DNA of 27,404 nucleotides, taken from positions 1 through 27,404 of IMG/VR virus record IMGVR_UViG_3300027963_000280. One strand, written 5' to 3'. The stretch's first letter is position 1, and each line of letters begins with the position of its first letter. A program made the translations under genes and the position numbers. This document shows positions 1,646 to 25,615 of the stretch, piece after piece. The notes under the pieces were generated by a model. It was not told where the DNA came from and ran no database searches. It worked only from the letters and a program-made list of their open reading frames with translations. This DNA comes from a virus.

Positions 1646-1867
1646 ATGTTATCAAAAAATGATAAGATAGACATTATTAATAACAAAATATCAAACTTAG
1701 AGATTTCTATATCAGTACTTAATGAAGAAATTGAGATTTTTAAAAAAATAGATCCAGTAGATCAAGAAACTATAGATGGCTACCTTGGAGATATAGACTT
1801 AAAAAGGAGAAATATTTTGATTATAAAAGAACTATTACACGAATTAAATTCAGGCATTGACCAATAA
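1646..1867 (+). CDS. Small coiled-coil protein, paralog 1 of 4 (73 aa)
   Basis: Function unknown. The start is supported by GGAG about 7 bases before the ATG. The protein begins MLSKNDKIDIINNKISNLE, is nearly all charged and aliphatic residues, and has heptad-like spacing (I, L, I, L) with no Gly or Cys core, so one helical hairpin or coiled coil is expected. Its opening pattern, a lysine-rich patch followed by I-I-N-x-x-I-x-x-L, is shared with the next three genes, marking a tandem paralog family. It follows the fiber gene directly, with 27 bases between. It may be virion-associated or an early protein binding a host partner; neither is shown by sequence. Confidence 0.7.
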   Translation: MLSKNDKIDIINNKISNLEISISVLNEEIEIFKKIDPVDQETIDGYLGDIDLKRRNILIIKELLHELNSGIDQ

Positions 1868-1906
1868 TGCTTAATAATAATAATATAATACAAGAGGAGA
1901 GCAAAA

Positions 1907-2134
1907 ATGACAACTGAATTAACTAAAGAAGAAAAAGCACAAATAATTAATTCTCGTATCCGCAATTTGGAGCAGGGTAGATATAGTCTTGAAATTGATA
2001 TTATTCAAGAAAATGCTAAGCAAAATCCATCTTCCGAAATAGTCAGTCTGATTGATACAAAAAAAGATGAAATCTCTGCTCAAATCGCGGTATTAAGCTC
2101 AGAATTGGCGCAGGTCAATTTATTAAAAGAGTAG
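1907..2134 (+). CDS. Small coiled-coil protein, paralog 2 of 4 (75 aa)
   Basis: Function unknown. A clear ribosome site (GAGGAG about 8 bases upstream) sets the ATG. The N-terminus MTTELTKEEKAQIINSRIRN aligns with the third copy (MTIELSKEEKVSIINQHIKT) and less closely with the first and fourth. After this charged helix comes a second helix with a heptad pattern ending in LSSELAQVNLLKE. The stop codon lies inside the left arm of the inverted repeat at 2131-2191. No membrane segment, signal peptide or cysteine is present, so a cytoplasmic or virion-internal helical protein is likely. Confidence 0.72.
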   Translation: MTTELTKEEKAQIINSRIRNLEQGRYSLEIDIIQENAKQNPSSEIVSLIDTKKDEISAQIAVLSSELAQVNLLKE

Positions 2135-2191
2135 GGGCTATAGACACAGATAATTTAGCAACCTTGGGTAGTCAGGTTAATAAGCCCCTAC
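2131..2191 (+). other. Long-looped inverted repeat with nested stem (structured RNA or terminator candidate)
   Basis: A perfect 9-bp pair, GTAGGGGCT (2131-2139) with AGCCCCTAC (2183-2191), encloses about 43 bases. Inside is a second stem, AACCT (2160-2164) with AGGTT (2174-2178), and a 9-base loop. No U-tract follows, so it is not a classic intrinsic terminator. It sits between paralogs 2 and 3 and just before an extended -10 element. It could be a transcript 3' end, a processing site or a protein-binding RNA; it does not resemble a tRNA. Confidence 0.45.
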
Positions 2192-2193
2192 CC

Positions 2194-2202
2194 TGATATA
2201 AT
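2194..2202 (+). promoter_or_regulatory. Extended -10 promoter for coiled-coil paralogs 3 and 4
   Basis: TGATATAAT has both the TGn extension and a perfect TATAAT hexamer at 2197-2202. No good -35 is seen at 16-18 bases, as is usual for extended -10 promoters. A start near 2209 leaves a short leader containing AAGGA before the ATG at 2241. Confidence 0.55.
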
Positions 2203-2240
2203 AAGAACCTATACTACGTAGAACTAAGGAAATGGAAAAA

Positions 2241-2459
2241 ATGACAATAGAACTAAGTAAAGAAGAAAAAGTAAGTATCATAAATCAGCACATCAAAACT
2301 TTGAAGTATAACAAGTATGATTACCAAATATCTATAAAAGAAGAAGAGGCTGCAGAAACACCTTCTACTTCTAGAGTAGACTCACTTAATGCAAAAATAG
2401 CAGAGGTTGATGCAAAAGTTACAGCTTTAAGTGCTGAAATAGCAGCATTAAACTCATAA
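2241..2459 (+). CDS. Small coiled-coil protein, paralog 3 of 4 (72 aa)
   Basis: Function unknown. Two in-frame ATGs exist, at 2232 and 2241. The second is preferred because AAGGA (2226-2230) lies about 10 bases before it but almost touches the first, and because it aligns with the N-terminus of paralog 2. The sequence opens MTIELSKEEKVSIINQHIKT and ends in an Ala-rich heptad helix (KVTALSAEIAALNS). It is probably transcribed from the extended -10 element just upstream, so it may be expressed at a different time from paralogs 1 and 2. The following gene starts 9 bases after its stop. Confidence 0.7.
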   Translation: MTIELSKEEKVSIINQHIKTLKYNKYDYQISIKEEEAAETPSTSRVDSLNAKIAEVDAKVTALSAEIAALNS

Positions 2460-2468
2460 GGTTTTATC

Positions 2469-2693
2469 GTGGTATCAACTGAGGTAACAAAACAAGAAAA
2501 ACTTGATTTAGTTGCTTCTCGTATACGTAACCATAAAATTAATAAATTTAACTCTGAACTTTTTATTATAGAAGAAGAAGCTAGTTTAGCCCCTACGGAA
2601 TCAGATATAGCCTCTGCAAGAGCCTCTATACTTTCATCAGAGTCTCAGATAGCGGCTTTAGAAGAAACATACTCTGTCATCCAAGCAGAGTAA
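2469..2693 (+). CDS. Small coiled-coil protein, paralog 4 of 4 (74 aa)
   Basis: Function unknown. GTG is used as start, with AAGG about 7 bases upstream. The N-terminus MVSTEVTKQEKLDLVASRIRN retains the family pattern (T/K-x-E-K, then R-I-R-N as in paralog 2). The second half (residues about 40-74) is another heptad helix rich in Ala, Ser and Glu. It follows paralog 3 by 9 bases, so the two are almost certainly co-transcribed. Divergence between copies is high at residue level while length stays at 72-75 aa, suggesting old duplications held by selection rather than a recent copying error. Confidence 0.68.
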   Translation: MVSTEVTKQEKLDLVASRIRNHKINKFNSELFIIEEEASLAPTESDIASARASILSSESQIAALEETYSVIQAE

Positions 2694-2717
2694 AACAAAA
2701 AGAGAAAGACAAACGAC

Positions 2718-2882
2718 ATGAGCGAGTTTAAGACAAAGCAAGAGTTAATGATTATTGCCCTACAGCAACGTATTGGTGAACTTACTGCAAATTATGAAGG
2801 ACAGATTGCCTCCCTTCGTGCTGATTTAACTCAACTGATGGAGATAGCAAAGATTTCTGAAACTGAAACTAAAGAAACATAA
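2718..2882 (+). CDS. Short coiled-coil protein (54 aa), translationally coupled to next gene
   Basis: The frame encodes MSEFKTKQELMIIALQQRIG and continues as one amphipathic helix to residue 54. The stop TAA overlaps the next ATG (TAATG at 2880-2884), which supports real translation and coupling. It is shorter than the four upstream paralogs and does not share their opening pattern, although its size range and helical character match. The repeated Gln/Leu/Ile heptads suggest self-association. Function unknown. An AG-rich tract (2697-2709) upstream could serve as a ribosome site. Confidence 0.62.
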   Translation: MSEFKTKQELMIIALQQRIGELTANYEGQIASLRADLTQLMEIAKISETETKET

Positions 2883-3389: not shown

Positions 3390-5210
3390 ATGACAAACGG
3401 ACTAGATGGAATTCAAGTAAGCCTTGTTGACTCTGTAGAAAAGGCAAACGAATTTATTTCTTGGTTAGGTCAGCGCCGTCCTCATGATGCAATTGCAATC
3501 GACACTGAGACGGGGGAAAAACTAGGTTCACCTAGAGATCATGCTTTATCTCCTTGGCATGGTGATCTTCGTTTGGTTCAAGTTGGTGATGGTATGCACG
3601 GCTGGTCTATTCCTTGGGCAGAGTGGTCTGGAGTTTTTTATGAAGCAATGAATAAATTTGATGGACCTATTGTGTGCCACAATATTGCATTTGAAGCAAG
3701 ATGGTTTGCAATTAAATCTAATTGGGAAATACCTTGGCATCGAGCACATGACACAATGATTATGGCTCACCTAATTGATCCTCTAGGCCCTGGTGGATTA
3801 AAACCTTTATCAGCAAGACTTGTAGATGGTCATGCTGCCCACCTTCAAGATAAGTTAGATGTTGACCTAGCAAAAAATGGTTGGACTTGGGGAACTGTTC
3901 CTACAAACTTTGAGCCTTACTGGTCTTATGGTGCACTCGATACTATTTTAACAATGCGTCTGTGGGAAAAGTTTTACGAGAAATGCGGTCCTAATCAGCC
4001 TTATTACAAAGCCTATGAGATTGAGATGGCTGCTAGAAAGATAGTTACTCGTATGGAGATAAACGGAGCAAGAGTTGATTTAGAGTATTCAAAACGTAAG
4101 TACGAAGAACTCATTGACTACACGGAGTCAGTAAAAGATTGGGCTACTAAAACCTACGCTGGAACTAGCATCACTAGCAATATTCAACTAGTTAGATTAT
4201 TTGAAAAACTTGGCGCAGAGATAACTGAAACTACTCCTTCTGGTCAAAAGTCTGCAAGTAAAGATCAACTTCACCTGCTAACTATTCAAGGCAATGATGA
4301 GGTTAAAAATCTTGCCGAAACAATTTTAAAACAGCGTAAAGCAGATAAACTAGCAAATACCTACTTCCTTAACTTCTTAAACAAATCAATTGATGGCATT
4401 GTTCATCCTTCTGTAAAGACTTTAGGTGCTCGTACATCTCGCATGTCTATCACCGACCCAGCGCTACAAACTCTGCCAAAGGGAGATGACACTGTTCGCA
4501 GAGCATTTATACCTAAAGATAAAGATCACGTAATTATTACCTCTGACCTTGACCAAGTTGAGTTTCGTATGTTTGCTTCTTTATCTAAAGATCCTAATTT
4601 AATTAATCTTTTTAATCGCGCTGATGCAACTGGTTCAGATCCCTTTACTGAAATTGGTCGTGAGGTTTATCAAGAACCAGATATGACTCGTGCAGATAAA
4701 AGACGTAACCTAATTAAGGGAATGGTTTATGGTCGTCTTTATGGTGCTGGCGTTGCTAAACAAGCACTCACCGCTGGAGTTCTAGAGTCTCAAATGAAAT
4801 CTGTATCAGATGCTTTTGACAAGCGTTACCCAGGAATGATTAAGTTTCAAAGAGATATTGAAAATCTTGGTGCTCGTAGAGAAAGGGATGAAGGTCAGGG
4901 TTACATTTACACTTGGACTGGTCGTAAGATTCCTTGCGATGAAGGACGTGTCTACACGCTGATTAATTACTTAATCCAAGGTGGGGCTGCCGAAATATTT
5001 AAAAGTAATCTAATAAAACTTGATCAAGCAGACTTGACCGAGTACCTTATCGTCCCTGTACATGATGAAATTGTTTTACAAGCACCAAGGGATGAAGCAG
5101 AAGAAGTAAAGAAAGTAGTTCAAGAATGTATGACAACTACTGAAGGTTGGGATGTTCCACTAACTGCTGGAATAGATGGTCCACTAGAGAACTGGGGACA
5201 AAAGTACTGA
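3390..5210 (+). CDS. polA: Family A DNA polymerase with 3'-5' exonuclease domain
   Basis: This is the replicative polymerase of the phage. Exonuclease domain (about 1-200): motif I DTE at 38-40, motif II HNIAFE at 97-102 (Glu where Asp is usual), motif III YxxxD at Y180/D184. Polymerase domain: motif A D386-x-D-Q-V-E391-F-R393; motif B R439-xxx-K443-xxx-Y447-G-xx-Y451-G; motif C HDE at 558-560. No 5' nuclease domain is present, as in T7-type enzymes, and the length (606 aa) fits. The residue matching E. coli Phe762 is Tyr447, as in T7 polymerase. AGAAGGA precedes the ATG at a good distance. The stop overlaps the ATG of the resolvase gene, so the two are coupled. Confidence 0.96.
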   Translation: MTNGLDGIQVSLVDSVEKANEFISWLGQRRPHDAIAIDTETGEKLGSPRDHALSPWHGDLRLVQVGDGMHGWSIPWAEWSGVFYEAMNKFDGPIVCHNIAFEARWFAIKSNWEIPWHRAHDTMIMAHLIDPLGPGGLKPLSARLVDGHAAHLQDKLDVDLAKNGWTWGTVPTNFEPYWSYGALDTILTMRLWEKFYEKCGPNQPYYKAYEIEMAARKIVTRMEINGARVDLEYSKRKYEELIDYTESVKDWATKTYAGTSITSNIQLVRLFEKLGAEITETTPSGQKSASKDQLHLLTIQGNDEVKNLAETILKQRKADKLANTYFLNFLNKSIDGIVHPSVKTLGARTSRMSITDPALQTLPKGDDTVRRAFIPKDKDHVIITSDLDQVEFRMFASLSKDPNLINLFNRADATGSDPFTEIGREVYQEPDMTRADKRRNLIKGMVYGRLYGAGVAKQALTAGVLESQMKSVSDAFDKRYPGMIKFQRDIENLGARRERDEGQGYIYTWTGRKIPCDEGRVYTLINYLIQGGAAEIFKSNLIKLDQADLTEYLIVPVHDEIVLQAPRDEAEEVKKVVQECMTTTEGWDVPLTAGIDGPLENWGQKY

Positions 5211-5689
5211 TGAAATATATAGTTTCTGTAGATCCTGGTAAGGCAACAGGAGTTTGTTTAGTTGAGTGGTCTGGCTTGCCAGAAGAGGCTCCAGTAGTAA
5301 AAATGTCAGCAGAGGTTGACCCAGAAACATTTGCTTCTTGGATAGACACGGCTATGTCTATTGCTTTTTCCTCGGCTGCCTCCTACGATAATGTTTTGGT
5401 GGTTTGTGAGCGATTTGTTATTACTGCTCAGACGGTGAGAAACTCGCAAGCGCCATTTAGCCTTGAACAGATAGGGGTTTTAAAGCATATGTGTCGAACT
5501 AAGGAATATGACCCTGAAAAAATCATTTTTCAGTCCCCTGTAGATGCTAAGACAATGTTTCCTAATGATGCTTTAAAGAAGTTAGGCACTTGGCATAAAG
5601 GCGGAGAAGGCCATGCAAATGACGCTATACGACACGCCCTTTTAAAGTTGGTTAAGAGCGGTTGGAAGCCATTAGTTCTGTTAAAATAG
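5210..5689 (+). CDS. RuvC-like Holliday junction resolvase (159 aa)
   Basis: The start chosen is the ATG at 5210, overlapping the polymerase stop (TGATG); the frame stays open upstream but that part lies inside the polymerase. The RNase H-fold signature is clear: IVSVDPGKATG with D8 on strand 1, VVCERFV with E67, and a C-terminal HANDAIRHALL with D138 and H135. These acidic residues would hold the two metal ions that cleave branched DNA. Phages use such enzymes to resolve recombination intermediates and trim branches before packaging. The neighbours, polymerase and helicase, fit. It is a RuvC-superfamily member rather than a proven orthologue of bacterial ruvC. Confidence 0.88.
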   Translation: MKYIVSVDPGKATGVCLVEWSGLPEEAPVVKMSAEVDPETFASWIDTAMSIAFSSAASYDNVLVVCERFVITAQTVRNSQAPFSLEQIGVLKHMCRTKEYDPEKIIFQSPVDAKTMFPNDALKKLGTWHKGGEGHANDAIRHALLKLVKSGWKPLVLLK

Positions 5690-20261: not shown

Positions 20262-20498
20262 CTAAATTACTAGTACAGCCGCTTCTGCCTCTGTTAGAGG
20301 AGTTCCAGCGATTAGCTTTGTTCTAGCAGATGCTTTTAATGCTGCTGTTGCAGCCTCTGCCGCTTCGCGCTCAGCCTGTGCAGTTGCATACGCTGCTGCA
20401 TCTGCCTCGCGTTGTGAAATTTCTTCAGCCGTCAACGGGATAATTTGTGTCTCTCCAGTTGAGCAATCTACTACTACCTTTGTTGGTGCTTCAGACAT
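20262..20498 (-). CDS. Small Ala/Glu-rich helical protein, divergent member of the adhesin-partner family (78 aa)
   Basis: The sequence begins MSEAPTKVVVDCSTGETQII, then a strand-turn-helix with EEISQREADAAAYATAQAE and an Ala-rich helix, closing with LTEAEAAVLVI. The layout (short beta N-terminus, polar helix, C-terminal acidic LT-x-x-E-A motif) matches the 70-72 aa genes at 20950, 21832 and 24655, although sequence identity is low. It starts 2 bases after the MAHFAE-type gene. Such small proteins next to fibers are often assembly chaperones or fiber-cap subunits, which is inference. Confidence 0.62.
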   Translation of the reverse strand: MSEAPTKVVVDCSTGETQIIPLTAEEISQREADAAAYATAQAEREAAEAATAALKASARTKLIAGTPLTEAEAAVLVI

Positions 20499-20500
20499 GT

Positions 20501-20869
20501 TTATGCTACCTCTATCCAGTTAGTTGTTTCTTCATCCCAACGATACATCTTGTCATCGGTTGGCATTGCAACGGGAGCTTCCCAATTACATGTTGCTTCA
20601 TCTAATACCCATGAAGCGTAAGGCTTTGGCGCAATGAACGCGTCTTTTACGGCGTCAAATGTATAACCAATTCCTGCATAATTCTTGCGATATGGTGTTC
20701 CACCTAAAGCGTGAACTCCACCTTGTGTGTTGTAGGAAGTCTTCTTCCAAGTCCCACCTAGACCTAAGTCATCGGCTAGATACTCTTGACCCCGACCTTC
20801 TTGAGCATCTGGAACAACAAGTACACGTACTACTGTATTGCTCTCATCTATTTCGGCAAAATGTGCCAT
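20501..20869 (-). CDS. MAHFAE-type virion/tail-associated protein (122 aa)
   Basis: AAGGAG about 9 bases before the ATG. Recognizable family seen in many aquatic phages: MAHFAEIDESNTVVRVLVV at the start, WKKTSYNTQGGVHALGG, the strongly kept KNYAGIGYTFDAVKDAFI and PKPYASWVLDEATC block, and a C-terminal MYRWDEETTNWIEV. The protein is beta-rich and usually sits among tail-fiber genes; its exact role is not established. A shorter homolog occurs at 25617-25922. An extended -10 promoter lies directly upstream, so it opens the last transcription segment of the array. Confidence 0.8.
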   Translation of the reverse strand: MAHFAEIDESNTVVRVLVVPDAQEGRGQEYLADDLGLGGTWKKTSYNTQGGVHALGGTPYRKNYAGIGYTFDAVKDAFIAPKPYASWVLDEATCNWEAPVAMPTDDKMYRWDEETTNWIEVA

Positions 20870-20897
20870 ATTTTTTTTCTCCTTATTTCTGATACTA

Positions 20898-20906
20898 ATT
20901 ATACCA
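20898..20906 (-). promoter_or_regulatory. Extended -10 promoter inside the adhesin array
   Basis: The minus strand reads TGGTATAAT: a TGn extension and a perfect TATAAT. The transcript would start near 20891, upstream of AAGGAG (20879-20884). No good -35 is visible. Confidence 0.55.
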
Positions 20907-20926
20907 CGCCTGATTAAAGTTCTCTT

Positions 20927-20948
20927 TAAAACAATCCCTCAAGATTGT
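20927..20948 (-). terminator. Weak intrinsic terminator after the 21168-20950 gene
   Basis: On the minus strand ACAATC and GATTGT (20943-20948 and 20931-20936) form a 6-bp stem with a 6-base loop, followed by TTT and an A-rich tract. Short and A+T-rich, it is probably leaky; together with the promoter beyond, it marks a boundary between transcript segments. Confidence 0.4.
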
Positions 20949-20949
20949 G

Positions 20950-21168
20950 CTATAAACCTAAAGCCCTTAAATCATCAGTAGTTAAACCGAGTGCGGCTAA
21001 CTTGCCTTCGGCAGTTGCTTTAGCCTGAGCCTTTGCTTCTGCCTCTGCTTGTGCAATTGCCTGTGCTGCTTGGTCTGCTTGATATTGAGCAAACTCAGCA
21101 TCATCCATCTCTCTATCAATGACCTCGTCAGTTTCAATGTTATGTATTCTTACTATTGGTTTTGTCAT
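20950..21168 (-). CDS. Small adhesin-partner family protein (72 aa)
   Basis: MTKPIVRIHNIETDEVIDRE opens the protein, followed by MDDAEFAQYQADQAAQA, an alternating Ala-Gln-Glu helix and a closing LTTDDLRALGL. It is near-identical in its middle part to the gene at 24655-24864 (shared D-A-E-F-A-Q-Y-Q-A-D-Q-A-A-Q-A), so the two are recent duplicates. It begins one base after the stop of the 220-aa adhesin. The helix could trimerize or bind the adhesin during folding. No known domain can be named with confidence. Confidence 0.7.
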   Translation of the reverse strand: MTKPIVRIHNIETDEVIDREMDDAEFAQYQADQAAQAIAQAEAEAKAQAKATAEGKLAALGLTTDDLRALGL

Positions 21169-21169
21169 A

Positions 21170-21832
21170 TTATTTCACCCCGTAAAGTAGGACTGTGCCT
21201 GTTGATAAATTCCCACCATCATTTGAAAATACAAGTGATGTTATTGCAGAAGTTGTTTGAATGCCACCAAAACATGTAAATGCTTGGTCGCTTGCACTAT
21301 TGCTTACATTGTAATAACCATATACCTGAAATGGTTTGTGTGCAGTTGTGCTTGTATAGTTGTTAATGGTGAAAGCAATGGCATTTGAAGCACTTGTGCG
21401 GTCTGGCGCTTCGCCACCCCCAGTGCTTATCATTAAATAAGAAGCGGTTGTGGATTGCCATGTTGGAGTCACTGCATTGCCAACATGTATATTAAATGAA
21501 GTAGTTGTAGAACCATTTGGTGCAATTCTATATTGACCATTTCCTGTTGCATTTGTCATACCTGTTACAATTCCAAACAAAGTATTGTATGAACCACTTA
21601 TTGATGAAATAGTTGTTGTTGCACCTGAAAGAGTTGTAGTTGATAATAAAGTCATACCACCAGCAGCAGGAGTTGCCCACTTCAAACCAGTAGCAGTAGT
21701 TGAATCAACTGTTAATACTTGGTCAGTGCTTCCTACCGCAAGAACACCAGAGTCATTAGTAGCACTACCTACAACTAGATCTCCCTTGGCTGCCGGTGCA
21801 ACTGCATTACTTGAGGCCTTAGTTATAGCCAT
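21170..21832 (-). CDS. Tail-fiber protein with stalk module and shared C-terminal domain (220 aa)
   Basis: AGGAGG lies about 6 bases before the ATG, which overlaps the previous stop (TAATG). The N-terminal module includes PAAKGDLVVGSATNDSGVLA and TGLKWATPAAGG (about 15-60), a beta repeat frequent in T4-like and cyanophage fibers. The C-terminal part has SISGSYNTLFGIVTG, FTINNYTSTTAHKPFQVYG, TTSAITSLVF and a final LLYGVK. The DNA around AITSLVF matches that of the 172-aa gene closely, implying recent exchange. A small partner gene follows after one base. Confidence 0.76.
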   Translation of the reverse strand: MAITKASSNAVAPAAKGDLVVGSATNDSGVLAVGSTDQVLTVDSTTATGLKWATPAAGGMTLLSTTTLSGATTTISSISGSYNTLFGIVTGMTNATGNGQYRIAPNGSTTTSFNIHVGNAVTPTWQSTTASYLMISTGGGEAPDRTSASNAIAFTINNYTSTTAHKPFQVYGYYNVSNSASDQAFTCFGGIQTTSAITSLVFSNDGGNLSTGTVLLYGVK

Positions 21833-22047
21833 TAGTTACCTCCTAGTAGTAGTTGTGCTTCCTCGGCAGTTAAACCAAGACGATCAAGAACTGCTTGTCG
21901 TGCAGTTGCTTTTGCTTGTGCTTCAACAGCAATTTGCGGATCTACATAACTTGCTAATTTGTAAGCATCAAATTCATCTTTGTTCATTGGCCGTTCAATT
22001 TCCTCACCAGTTAAAACATCAACAATTTTAATTATTGGATTTGTCAT
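21832..22047 (-). CDS. Small adhesin-partner family protein (71 aa)
   Basis: GGAGG precedes the ATG, which overlaps the stop of the 238-aa adhesin (TAATG). MTNPIIKIVDVLTGEEIERP is followed by MNKDEFDAYKLA, an Ala/Gln-rich helix and LTAEEAQLLLGGN. It keeps the layout of the 20950 and 24655 genes, namely a beta hairpin ending E-R-P/D-R-E then M-x-x-x-E-F-x-x-Y, but differs at most other residues. The position directly after an adhesin is the same. The overlapping start suggests the pair is made in fixed ratio. Confidence 0.7.
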   Translation of the reverse strand: MTNPIIKIVDVLTGEEIERPMNKDEFDAYKLASYVDPQIAVEAQAKATARQAVLDRLGLTAEEAQLLLGGN

Positions 22048-22763
22048 TATGAACCTCCATATAGGTAAGCAGTTCCACCAGAAAAAGTTCCACCAGTCAC
22101 AAAAATTTGAATGCTTGAAACAACGCTAGAACTTTTGAAAAATCCTTCTGTCCCTTGATACTCTGTTCCTCCAGAAGTTTTTGCAGTCCAAGCCCTTATT
22201 TTTTTATAGCCACTTTGTTGCGCTGAACTAATTTCAGCAAATCCAGCTTGTGTGCTACTTATATTGCCAATATCAAAAGCACCAATTGCTTCACGATAAC
22301 TTTGGGCCTGAAAAATAGTTGGGTATAAATATAAACCATCATAATTTGCAGCGGTTGTATTGCTATTTAATGTAATTCTTACATCCTGACCAGCTGATGA
22401 ACCTGTCCAATCTTGCAACCAAACAAAATAATTATTATTGGTTAATCCTGTCAAAGACACACTTGAACCAGTTAAAGAAGTTGTTGATAACAATGACCAA
22501 GAAACATTTCCACCAACAACAGGTGTTGCCCACTTTAAACCAGTAGCCTCAGCACTATCTGCCGTAAGGACTGTATTATTAGCACCTACTCCAAGACGAG
22601 CAGGGGTATCTGCTGCCGTAGCAGTAATCAGATCCCCTTTAGCATCTACTATTGTAGAAGCAATCTCACTATGACTGTGTGTACCAGTGCCTATCGGATA
22701 CCAAACAGCATCTGTTGAGTCATAAACATAACCTGGTCTAGGGGTATTACTAATTGTTGCCAT
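22047..22763 (-). CDS. Tail-fiber protein with stalk module and shared C-terminal domain (238 aa)
   Basis: AGGAGG lies 11 bases before the ATG, within the end of the 49-aa gene. N-terminus: MATISNTPRPGYVYDSTDAV then WYPIGTGTHSHSEI (a common fiber attachment segment), followed by VDAKGDLITATAADTPARLG and TGLKWATP (about 38-80). The C-terminal domain has SLTGLTNNNYFVWLQDW and an SSSVVSSIQIFV segment, and ends TAYLYGGS. It is one of three long members (220, 238, 249 aa) whose stalks are alike while the tips are divergent, as expected for host-range proteins. Confidence 0.76.
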   Translation of the reverse strand: MATISNTPRPGYVYDSTDAVWYPIGTGTHSHSEIASTIVDAKGDLITATAADTPARLGVGANNTVLTADSAEATGLKWATPVVGGNVSWSLLSTTSLTGSSVSLTGLTNNNYFVWLQDWTGSSAGQDVRITLNSNTTAANYDGLYLYPTIFQAQSYREAIGAFDIGNISSTQAGFAEISSAQQSGYKKIRAWTAKTSGGTEYQGTEGFFKSSSVVSSIQIFVTGGTFSGGTAYLYGGS

Positions 22764-22766
22764 TGG

Positions 22767-22916
22767 TTAGTTGCCTCCTAGTAGTTGTTGAGCAATCATT
22801 TCATCATAAGTTGATTTAAGCATTGAGGTAAATTGCTCGTTGCCGTGGTCAATAATGGCGTGTTCTCTTTCAACACCGTCTGATTCTAAAACTTTAATAA
22901 AAGATACATTATCCAT
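22767..22916 (-). CDS. Very small adhesin-partner-like protein (49 aa)
   Basis: Translation gives MDNVSFIKVLESDGVEREHA, then IIDHGNEQFTSMLKSTYDEM and IAQQLLGGN. The ATG lies two bases after the stop of the collagen-like fiber gene, with GGAG about 9 bases upstream inside that gene. It ends in LLGGN like the 71-aa partner and occupies the same position after an adhesin, but lacks the Ala/Gln helix. It could be a trimmed or independently acquired partner. Good ribosome site, tight packing and lack of any alternative frame support it. Confidence 0.62.
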   Translation of the reverse strand: MDNVSFIKVLESDGVEREHAIIDHGNEQFTSMLKSTYDEMIAQQLLGGN

Positions 22917-22918
22917 TT

Positions 22919-24517
22919 TTATAACTCCGCACTAAATCCGATGTAAGCCGATGCTGAATTGTTTGCGCCAAAATAGCCGATATTTCCAGCAGTCATACCA
23001 GACCCTGTTCCATATACATAAGCATTTTTTGTGCTAGTTGTTGCTGAGTCTAAAGTCACTGAACTCATTGCATAATGAGTATTATCCCATTTGCTAAAAG
23101 CCAAAGTCGAACTATCTATTGCTGTTGGAGCAATTCGCATTTCTATTGGAAAAGCAAATAAACCAGTTCCCGCTGTTGTACTTTGAGCGAAGGCCGAACT
23201 TGCAAAAGATGAATAAACACCAGTAGCCGTGTATCTGTTGTAATACCTTTGACAAGCGGCTAACTCGCCTTGAACAGTTCCTGTTGCAGTTTGGAAGGCT
23301 GTTGCTGTTGAACCTGCTTCTAGTTGCCAGCCAAAAGTATCTACTGTAAAAGTAGAGTTAATTGGATGGTAAACATCCATAGTCAAATATGAACCAGTAC
23401 CAACAGTTTTACCAGCAATAGATGGAACTGTAAAAGAATATGTAAATCGTTGCCAAGATGTTGTAACTGAAATACTTGATGCAACAGTTGTGCTTGTTTC
23501 AGAAGAACCGCCTGAACCAAAACGCTGACGAGCATAGATTGCAGGCAATGTTGTAGTTGATGAAGCCTTAGCCCAAAAACTAAATGTTACAGTTTGACCA
23601 GCAAATGTGTTTGCGTTTTCAATTCTTTGGCAAATGTAATTGTAACTTGCACCAGTTCCAGCAACGCTTTGATTGAATCGGAAAAAGTATGGGTATTCAT
23701 ATCCTGCAATATCTCCATATCCCATAGTCTGACGACTAAATGTACGAGTACCACCTGAACCATCGCCTATCCATAGGAATCGGTCAGCAGAAAATGTTTC
23801 TGACCCAGTTCCTGCTATAGAAGTACCTCTTTGCCATACACCAAAGTCACCATTAATGATTTTATTCTTACCAGCAAAGAAGTTTGTAGTTTGTGGAATA
23901 AAACCGCTGTTAACTTGAGCCTGTGTGTAAACATCTGCAATAGCAAGTACTGCACTACCAATTACCTCAATGATATCGCCCGTAAGAGTTGCATCAATTA
24001 AGGTGATAGATGTGCCATTTGTTGCCGTGTAATCATTGCCACGAGATAAAAGCGTACCGTTTCGGTATACCTGCTCATATCCTGCTGTATAACTTAAAGT
24101 AACTGAACTGTCATCTAATCCAGTTAATGATGTTGTACCACCAGTAGGAGCCTTTGACCATCGAACTACCGCTTGACCAACTACTGCTCCATCTGTGTCT
24201 ACCCAAATAACCCCGTCTACTGGACTTGCTGGTTCAGTAGTTTGTGCAAATGCCATTCCTGTTGGGCCAGTCTGACCCGTTACACCTGTATTGCCCTGTG
24301 CCCCTGTATTTCCAGTTGCACCTGTATTTCCATTAGCACCCGTTTGACCAGTAGGTCCTGTACTACCCGTTGCACCTGTAGCACCAGTTGCCCCTGTTGA
24401 ATAAGGAACAGTCGAACGAACGACCTCCCAGACAGTGCCATTCCACTTCCAAACACGGTTGCCAACTGTGTGGGTAGAGTTGACAGATGGCGAGTTAGGA
24501 AAATCTATTGCTGGCAT
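22919..24517 (-). CDS. Collagen-like tail fiber with C-terminal carbohydrate-binding region (532 aa)
   Basis: AGGAGG about 5 bases before the ATG and a promoter upstream. Domains in order: N-terminal [20 protein letters not shown] attachment segment (6-25) with WNGTVWEVV; a Gly-X-Thr collagen-like stalk (42-87, about 15 triplets); [18 protein letters not shown] (93-110); a beta linker with [19 protein letters not shown] (142-160); [16 protein letters not shown] at 218-233, the signature of a phage fiber beta-sandwich domain; and a C-terminal part with QRYYNRY. The longest gene of the array, it is likely the main fiber shaft and tip. Confidence 0.85.
24257..24394 (-). repeat. Collagen-like Gly-X-Y coding repeat
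   Basis: About 15 consecutive G-x-T/N/Q triplets in the 532-aa fiber, with Thr in most third positions. The DNA is repetitive (9-base and 18-base near-repeats), so copy number may vary by slippage. Collagen triplets give trimeric rigid stalks in phage fibers. Confidence 0.85.
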
Positions 24518-24539
24518 GGTTCCTCCTAGTTACCTACGT

Positions 24540-24545
24540 ATTATA
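24540..24545 (-). promoter_or_regulatory. -10 element (TATAAT) for the collagen-like fiber gene
   Basis: A perfect TATAAT on the minus strand lies 22 bases before the ATG at 24517, with AGGAGG between. No convincing -35 is seen (TATTAA at 17 bases). The rest of the 137-base gap (24518-24654) holds only A+T-rich DNA and a weak broken stem near 24620-24640. Confidence 0.5.
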
Positions 24546-24654
24546 GTGGGTAATTACCTGCGTTAATAGTTTAAAACTGATTTTTAATGCGCGATTTTAA
24601 AGGATTTATAGCCCTAGAAAGGGGTCTATCCATTATTACCGCGGTGCTCCTTAA

Positions 24655-24864
24655 TTAAGAAAGTAAAAGTTTTGCTTGTTCTTCTGTAATGCCTAGTTGT
24701 GCTAGTAGGGCTGCCTTAGCAGTTGCCTTTGCTTCTGCCTCTGCTTGTGCAGTTGCCTGTGCTGCCTGGTCTGCTTGATATTGAGCAAACTCAGCATCAT
24801 TCATTTCTCTATCAACAACTTCATTAGTTGCTTGATTGTGTATTCTTACCATTGGTTTAGCCAT
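24655..24864 (-). CDS. Small adhesin-partner family protein (69 aa)
   Basis: The ATG at 24864 is chosen because the protein then begins MAKPMVRIHNQATNEVVDRE, aligning with the 72-aa copy at 20950, and because GGAG lies about 9 bases upstream; a longer frame to 24903 would overlap the adhesin gene. The middle MNDAEFAQYQADQAAQA is shared almost exactly with that copy; the C-terminus LGITEEQAKLLLS differs. It follows the 249-aa adhesin by one base and ends the first segment of the array, before a new promoter. Confidence 0.72.
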   Translation of the reverse strand: MAKPMVRIHNQATNEVVDREMNDAEFAQYQADQAAQATAQAEAEAKATAKAALLAQLGITEEQAKLLLS

Positions 24865-24865
24865 A

Positions 24866-25615
24866 TTATTTAACTCCGTATATCTTAACAGTTCCAGCGG
24901 CAAATGTGCCAGAAGCGATTGAAAATACTAAAGAAGAAATTGCTGTATTGGTTACAACCGCACCTGCTGCCATAAATAATCCACTTTGTGCTGCAGTAAC
25001 ATTTCCATACCAACTAAAAGGCTTACTGCTTGTAGTATCTGCATAATTAGATATATTCAAATAAAGAGCAGAAGGTGTTGCCGAGGTGCTTGTTCCAATA
25101 TTAGGGCTTGTTATATTTGCGTAAGTAACACCATCTGCTGTACTAGCACCTGCCAACAAAAGACTTAGTCCAATAGAATTTGTTCCATTAGGTTTAATAA
25201 AAAATTGGTCTGCGCCTGTTGAATAAACATTAGATACTACTATAACAAGATTTGTGTAAGTTTGATTTATACTTGAGATTGTTGTGCTTGCACCACTTAG
25301 AGATGTTGTGCTAAGTAAAGTTATACCACCGCTTGAAGGCGTAGCCCACTCCAAACCTGTTGCCTGACCAGAGGCAGCAGTTAAGACTGTGCCGTTTGCA
25401 CCTACGGCTAATCTAGCAACAGTATCTGCAGCAGTAGCAGCGATGATGTCGCCTTTAGCATCTACAATAGTAGGGTTAATTGCTGATGCAGAACCTATCT
25501 TGCTATCAATCTGTGTCTGGATAGCAGAGGTAACACCATCTACATACCCTAACTCAGTTGCAGTTACAGCACTTAGTGCGGTACTTGCGTTTGCGAGGTC
25601 TCTTGCTTTACTCAT
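24866..25615 (-). CDS. Tail-fiber protein with stalk module and shared C-terminal domain (249 aa)
   Basis: GAGG lies about 8 bases before the ATG; the upstream stop is one base away. N-terminus MSKARDLANASTALSAVTAT and ELGYVDGVTSAIQTQIDSK (about 21-39) is a well-known fiber repeat of marine and freshwater phages. VDAKGDIIAATAADTVARLA and TGLEWATP (about 51-92) form the stalk module. The tip has SSINQTYTNLVIVVSN, LNISNYADTTSSKPFSWYG, NTAISSLVF and a final VKIYGVK. It is the most complete member, containing every module seen in the others. Confidence 0.78.
   Translation of the reverse strand: MSKARDLANASTALSAVTATELGYVDGVTSAIQTQIDSKIGSASAINPTIVDAKGDIIAATAADTVARLAVGANGTVLTAASGQATGLEWATPSSGGITLLSTTSLSGASTTISSINQTYTNLVIVVSNVYSTGADQFFIKPNGTNSIGLSLLLAGASTADGVTYANITSPNIGTSTSATPSALYLNISNYADTTSSKPFSWYGNVTAAQSGLFMAAGAVVTNTAISSLVFSIASGTFAAGTVKIYGVK

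Follow-up and report, generated by a model that had tools for sequence, protein, structure and literature searches.

The tandem microprotein genes described here are best read as an accessory set of the tail fibre, a reading to which we give a probability of about 0.6. The copy adjoining the fibre (A1) would be the cognate partner of the C-terminal tip domain of the fibre and would be exchanged together with the tip as one cassette, while the following copies (A2) and the next small gene (B) would form a more constant backbone with a more general action. The A proteins would be small helical-hairpin helpers of fibre assembly.

Five small genes behind a fibre gene

The window, that is, the whole stretch of DNA analyzed, is a virus record of 27,404 bases. 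Since its DNA polymerase I shares 75% identity with the enzyme of the Actinomycetia phage DSL-LC01 and the 156-aa product of the gene preceding the polymerase is 64% identical to another DSL-LC01 protein, the virus is considered an actinophage-like virus from freshwater.

The window begins inside a long fibre gene and contains its 3' part (positions 2–1618, + strand), an open frame of 538 codons that is already open at the window start; the first ATG of the listed ORF is at position 296, and the product contains an fn3 domain (Pfam, E 1.9e-13). Directly 3' of this gene stand gene 1 (1646–1867; 73 aa; A1-class and type II-like by its model scores), gene 2 (1907–2134; 75 aa; A2-class), gene 3 (2232–2459; 75 aa; A2-class), gene 4 (2469–2693; 74 aa; A2-class, with a GTG start) and gene 5 (2718–2882; 54 aa; B family), all on the + strand. 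The widest gap between copies (97 nt, 2135–2231) separates genes 2 and 3. The sequence-only reading of this DNA, which had described four consecutive similar microprotein genes with a 54-aa follower, is confirmed on this point.

The A and B families

With gene 2 as the query, genes 3 and 4 of the record are found at E 1e-13 and 1e-7, respectively. Gene 1 is the outlier: it scores 17–19 bits on models built without it, which 0 of 2000 shuffles reach, and 26.4 bits on a model of the type II A1 proteins of other phages (see below), where none of 1000 shuffles comes as high, the best giving 9.3. The A2 and A1 profiles, the latter including gene 1, are homologous with an hhalign probability of 96.8%. 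The likeness of the four genes is thus beyond chance, as had been proposed, and by these comparisons genes 1–4 of the window are one homologous family, here called A. AlphaFold predicts a two-helix hairpin for both gene 2 and gene 1 (pLDDT 95 and 93, respectively).

Genes 3–5 were compared with their counterparts in L014, a close relative of the window. Synonymous and non-synonymous changes number 15 and 6 in gene 3 (92% identity), 8.5 and 2.5 in gene 4 (96% identity), and 12 and 0 in gene 5. This pattern of codon changes demonstrates purifying selection on genes 3–5, and the predominance of synonymous changes supports their translation.

Genes 2, 3 and 4 are each nearer to copies in other phages than to their neighbours in the window; the nearest relatives of gene 2, for example, are the second copies in L064–L068 (53–59% identity). 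Recent tandem duplication in the window was therefore rejected.

No convincing family was found for the A genes in PHROGs or Pfam, and five A-class queries (window genes 3 and 2, the A2 of a second phage group, type I A1 and type II A1) had no match among 50,697 phage records. Searches of PDB sequences yielded only coiled coils, among them several designed ones, along with chance matches; Foldseek returned no match at E <= 0.001, either for the gene 2 hairpin against the PDB or for the gene 1 hairpin against BFVD. A search of the literature gave no recognised description of the A and B families, which does not prove their absence from print. A is a real tail-module microprotein family that is undescribed in the libraries and papers searched. 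The earlier statement that no described family could be recognised therefore stands for A in the libraries searched; gene 5 matches PHROG 10610 (E 1.1e-8).

The same PHROG, annotated as of unknown function, is matched by all 28 aligned B members (best E 6.3e-29). Gene 5 was also considered as a fifth member of A and rejected (hhalign probability against A 5.6%). B homologues occur in Streptomyces phages of the Stanwilliamsviridae directly 3' of a 6-kb minor tail protein gene: Yaboi gp67 and Daubenski gp63, both of PHROG 10610, are homologous to gene 5 and are encoded at the corresponding position, behind the last of the large minor tail proteins. Unlike the window, these two loci (L011 and L012) had no A gene in the search of their ORF sets.

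Distribution of the A genes

Profile and single-sequence searches identified A genes at 55 further loci in viral_contigs. B is present in 56/56 A-bearing loci, a count that comprises the window and near-identical contigs, and the gaps between A and B range from -62 to 30 nt when first-start ORFs are taken. There are one to three A copies in the other loci and four in the window. In most loci that reach far enough, A lies between a fibre-like gene and B; in some, an oxygenase gene and/or a small four-cysteine gene separates the fibre from A, and five loci (L032, L039, L044, L045 and L054) have a gene without resemblance to a fibre immediately before A. Ten longer records were searched whole: nine had matches to the A2 profile and the tenth had none, and the matches all fell at the fibre locus except for one weak match of 22 residues.

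The search of genome_contigs gave one locus, L112 (CAINGU010000031.1), on a contig of 110 kb assigned by binning to a cyanobacterium MAG, with the order fibre, A1-like, A2 and B found in other loci. It is probably a phage contig, and its presence in a MAG labelled as a cyanobacterium carries little information on the host. A second phage group (L084, L098, L100, L104 and L106) has the same tips and A1 types, a different A2 (A2') and, instead of B, a large protein after A2, which is Laminin-G-like in L084, the sole one scanned. In this group the A1–A2' pair stands between the fibre and the Laminin-G tail-like gene.

Many loci have fibres with FFPP-type or other ends and no A1. Where the A1 partner is lacking, the C-terminal region of the fibre often has long FFPP or PPYF repeats (L022, L026, L028, L029, L030, L033, L034, L038, L042 and L060), and the fibre of L037 has an APYHEP-like repeat there; these segments are strikingly aromatic and proline-rich. 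In loci without A1, a 2OG-Fe(II) oxygenase and/or a small DUF6171-type four-cysteine protein may be encoded between the fibre and A2, as at 4847–5425 and 5714–5947 of L017; the family assignments come from scanning the L017 proteins, and the oxygenase genes of L015 and L048 look like that of L017. Small genes like those of L017 were seen in L022, L038, L048, L052, L053, L055, L056 and L063. The oxygenase might modify the fibre.

Fibre tips and A1 types go together

The A1 genes fall into types, and the fibres preceding each type end differently: the C-terminal motif is W-x-P-[ST]-x-T-T-Y-[TV] for type I tips and S-x-W-A for type II tips. The pairing was first seen in eight loci and then put to the test. 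A search with type I A1 found three new contigs of two lineages, 3/3 with a type I tip; the same search with type II A1 gave no new contig. In the reverse direction, loci were sought by the tip alone, and the matching A1 followed immediately in 19/19 type I and 11/11 type II loci, seven of these 30 being in contigs that had served to build the A1 models.

The scoring models were built on A7 and A8 only. All 16 type I loci outside the models score 63–105 bits on type I and at most 25 on type II, four of them (L086, L087, L095 and L097) lying in contigs that contributed to the tip profile; all seven type II loci outside the models score 33–106 bits on type II and at most 19 on type I. The counts of 30, 16 and seven include near-identical contigs and correspond, by eye, to about eleven type I and five type II lineages. 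Two further weak matches to the type II tip were set aside: L111 was dropped from the type II list, its match being inside a long protein, and L110, whose fibre extends 8 aa further, was left out of the count. The type II and type I models give the first gene of L110 scores of 30 and 13, respectively.

The association is also quantitative. Over 26 distinct tip/A1/A2 sets, tip identity and A1 identity correlate when A2 is controlled for (partial Mantel r=0.66, p=0.0002), also within type I (0.33, p 0.0044) and type II (0.46, p 0.011); the correlation of tip and A2 given A1 is -0.02 overall, 0.17 within type I and -0.30 within type II. Among the 1081 pairs of 47 loci, which were hand-picked for a readable fibre end after removal of same-contig duplicates, 203 agree in tip as well as first gene and 818 in neither one; a further 41 have only a similar first gene and 19 only a similar tip. 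Nine of these 19 involve L034, whose fn3 tip is 36–45% identical to type I tips, has a different end and is followed by an A2-class first copy; the other ten are type II or II-like pairs with A1 similarity under the cut-off. The tip of L046 has a short, weak similarity to the tips of L064–L068, and its first gene is unrelated to theirs.

No relative of the window's own fibre tip was found in viral_contigs, and the tip scores a weak 6.3 bits on type II, reached by one of 1000 shuffles; for this reason, the tip/A1 pairing in the window rests on gene 1 and on the comparison with L014.

Boundaries of exchange

In 6/6 comparisons of loci with different tips, similarity at the DNA level restarts close to the 3' end of A1, and the single same-tip control shows continuous similarity across tip, A1, A2 and B. 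Because L077, L098 and L100 were each used twice, the six comparisons lack independence. In L074/L077 and L073/L077 the fibre body upstream is similar as well, so the loss is confined to the distal fibre and A1; L084/L100 are similar in the fibre start, and in the remaining three comparisons little or nothing upstream is comparable.

The window and L014 align by BLASTN with 83% identity up to position 1009 and with 95.4% identity from 2170, within the gap between genes 2 and 3. The stretch from 1010 to 2169 has no similarity except two short segments of 47 and 35 nt, and only the 47-nt segment falls in the distal fibre (tip) region (1010–1618, + strand). The differing block thus consists of the end of the fibre gene together with genes 1 and 2; unlike the blocks that end at A1 elsewhere, it contains gene 2 as well. 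The four copies of the window are probably the product of an imported cassette: a tip–A1–A2 segment would have landed upstream of a resident A2–A2–B set. A 9-bp perfect inverted repeat, noticed by eye at 2131–2191, overlaps the 3' end of gene 2 and lies at the margin of the block common to the window and L014.

Possible roles of the A and B proteins

A more specific form of the accessory-set reading, which we put forward tentatively and consider possible at best, is a combinatorial code of fibre assembly. Each exchangeable tip would travel with a dedicated hairpin A1 of 65–75 aa that recognises the very C-terminal end of the tip and fits into a less variable helical cap made of A2 and B, so that unrelated phages would swap receptor-binding tips along with the matching adaptor; the window, with tip–A1–A2 upstream of resident A2–A2–B, would be an imported cassette caught in place. 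If the accessory-set reading is true, unnamed small genes of freshwater phages would gain a function, and the prediction of A1 type from tip type would serve as a sequence rule by which receptor-binding tips and their exchange could be recognised in metagenomes. Very small tip-matched helpers would then also be a test case for the start of trimeric fibre folding.

The co-segregation of tip and A1 indicates coupling and not chaperone action, as a permanent subunit of the tip would give the same pattern. A1, perhaps with A2 and B, could be a small helical cap or adaptor that is matched to the tip and stays on the fibre end of the virion. We regard this as rather unlikely, yet it draws on the same pairing, breakpoints and predicted helical hairpins, and there is a precedent in Mu Tfa, which according to PMC7289586 remains on its fibre tip. 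Against it, no structural family was matched in PHROGs or Pfam, and the small size and tandem copies suit helpers somewhat better, which is a judgement. A hetero-oligomeric part of the virion, one of the two roles suggested from the sequence alone, is possible in the form of such a tip cap. The accompanying idea that the diverged copies have distinct partners holds in kind, for genes 2–4 have nearer relatives in other phages and the first copy co-varies with the tip; the most likely partner is the fibre of the phage itself.

After every exchange, similarity resumes within or close to the conserved beginning of A2, as homologous recombination would produce without any functional tie. A1 could therefore be a passenger that lies beside a hypervariable fibre end, has a function unrelated to the fibre and is carried along by recombination in A2. 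This is improbable in our view: the pairing is kept in different phage groups and even where tip identity is far under 100%, tip and A1 identity correlate within types, and 0/30 loci have a type I or type II tip apart from its A1.

Co-variation with the tip would likewise be expected of a protein acting on the receptor of that tip and preventing self-adsorption or superinfection, much as T5 Llp blocks T5's own receptor. Such a host modifier is very unlikely here, because the charged hairpins have no signal peptide or lipobox apparent by eye, A2 and B would be left unexplained, and homologous hairpins adjoin fibres of many kinds. The other role suggested from the sequence alone, that of anti-defence or anti-host proteins with a different host target each, fits small, diverged, tandem genes. 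It was rejected, given that A in most loci adjoins the fibre at one end of the tail module, that A1 co-segregates with fibre tips and that A copies are restricted to the fibre locus in nine of the ten longer records, bar the one weak match.

Comparison with known fibre chaperones

The preferred accessory-set reading, in which A1 would bind the tip physically and the A proteins may act as chaperones, possibly as trimers, has parallels in known systems, where the chaperone gene is often located behind that of the fibre and its product works on the distal part. The division between A1 and A2/B is best read as resembling that between T4 gp38 and gp57A, an analogy without homology to gp57A. T4 gp38 is encoded behind the fibre gene and acts on the distal end, and gp57A is a general fibre helper of 79 residues, according to PMC3004832; a tip-specific gene directly behind the fibre gene is what we propose for A1, and a small general helper for A2 and B. 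The differences are that A1 has about 65–75 aa and gp38 22.3 kDa, and that gp57A is encoded among genes 57B, 1 and 3 in T4 and A2/B right behind the fibre. Homology of A or B to gp57A was rejected (hhalign probability below 1%); A4, A5 and A6 gave 0.4, 0.3 and 0.1%, respectively, with the single gp57A sequence as the target.

Tfa-type proteins such as Pam3 gp25 and Mu Tfa are phage-encoded helpers of the phage's own fibre with a helical trimerisation part, and they bind the distal fibre; in PMC9608196, Pam3 gp25 is a fibre chaperone whose helical domain trimerises. As given there, gp25 binds the fibre by an N-terminal beta-sandwich, whereas the A models are bare helical hairpins. PMC10579305 and PMC7289586 describe the DUF4376 proteins gp27 of Alteromonas phage V22 and gp9 of A5 as transient chaperone caps that are common to distant phages along with their fibres. 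They are cognate chaperones encoded behind the fibre, as A1 would be; however, two such chaperones are given as 195 and 239 aa long, and they carry beta-hairpin tentacles. Moreover, the whole host-recognition module is shared in those phages, and here it is the tip with one or two microproteins.

Neither A nor B matched a family of any fibre chaperone in the libraries searched: the Tfa, gp38 and DUF4376 profiles of PHROGs and Pfam had no match to window proteins at E<=1, and none of these families is among the listed Pfam matches (25 of 45 families) of 28 B proteins. The Tfa/gp38/DUF4376-like placement directly behind the fibre, with co-variation with its distal domain, was found in related loci; for the window it comes from the L014 comparison only.

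A second fibre region

Another fibre region lies on the - strand of the window (20262–25615), with fibre-like genes at 21170–21832, 22047–22763, 22919–24517 and 24866–25615. Scanning gave no convincing family for the small genes of this region. Each fibre-like gene is followed by one of these small genes (49–82 aa), three of which have similar openings, and the clearest family among the fibre-like genes is that of 22919–24517 (tail fibre, collagen).
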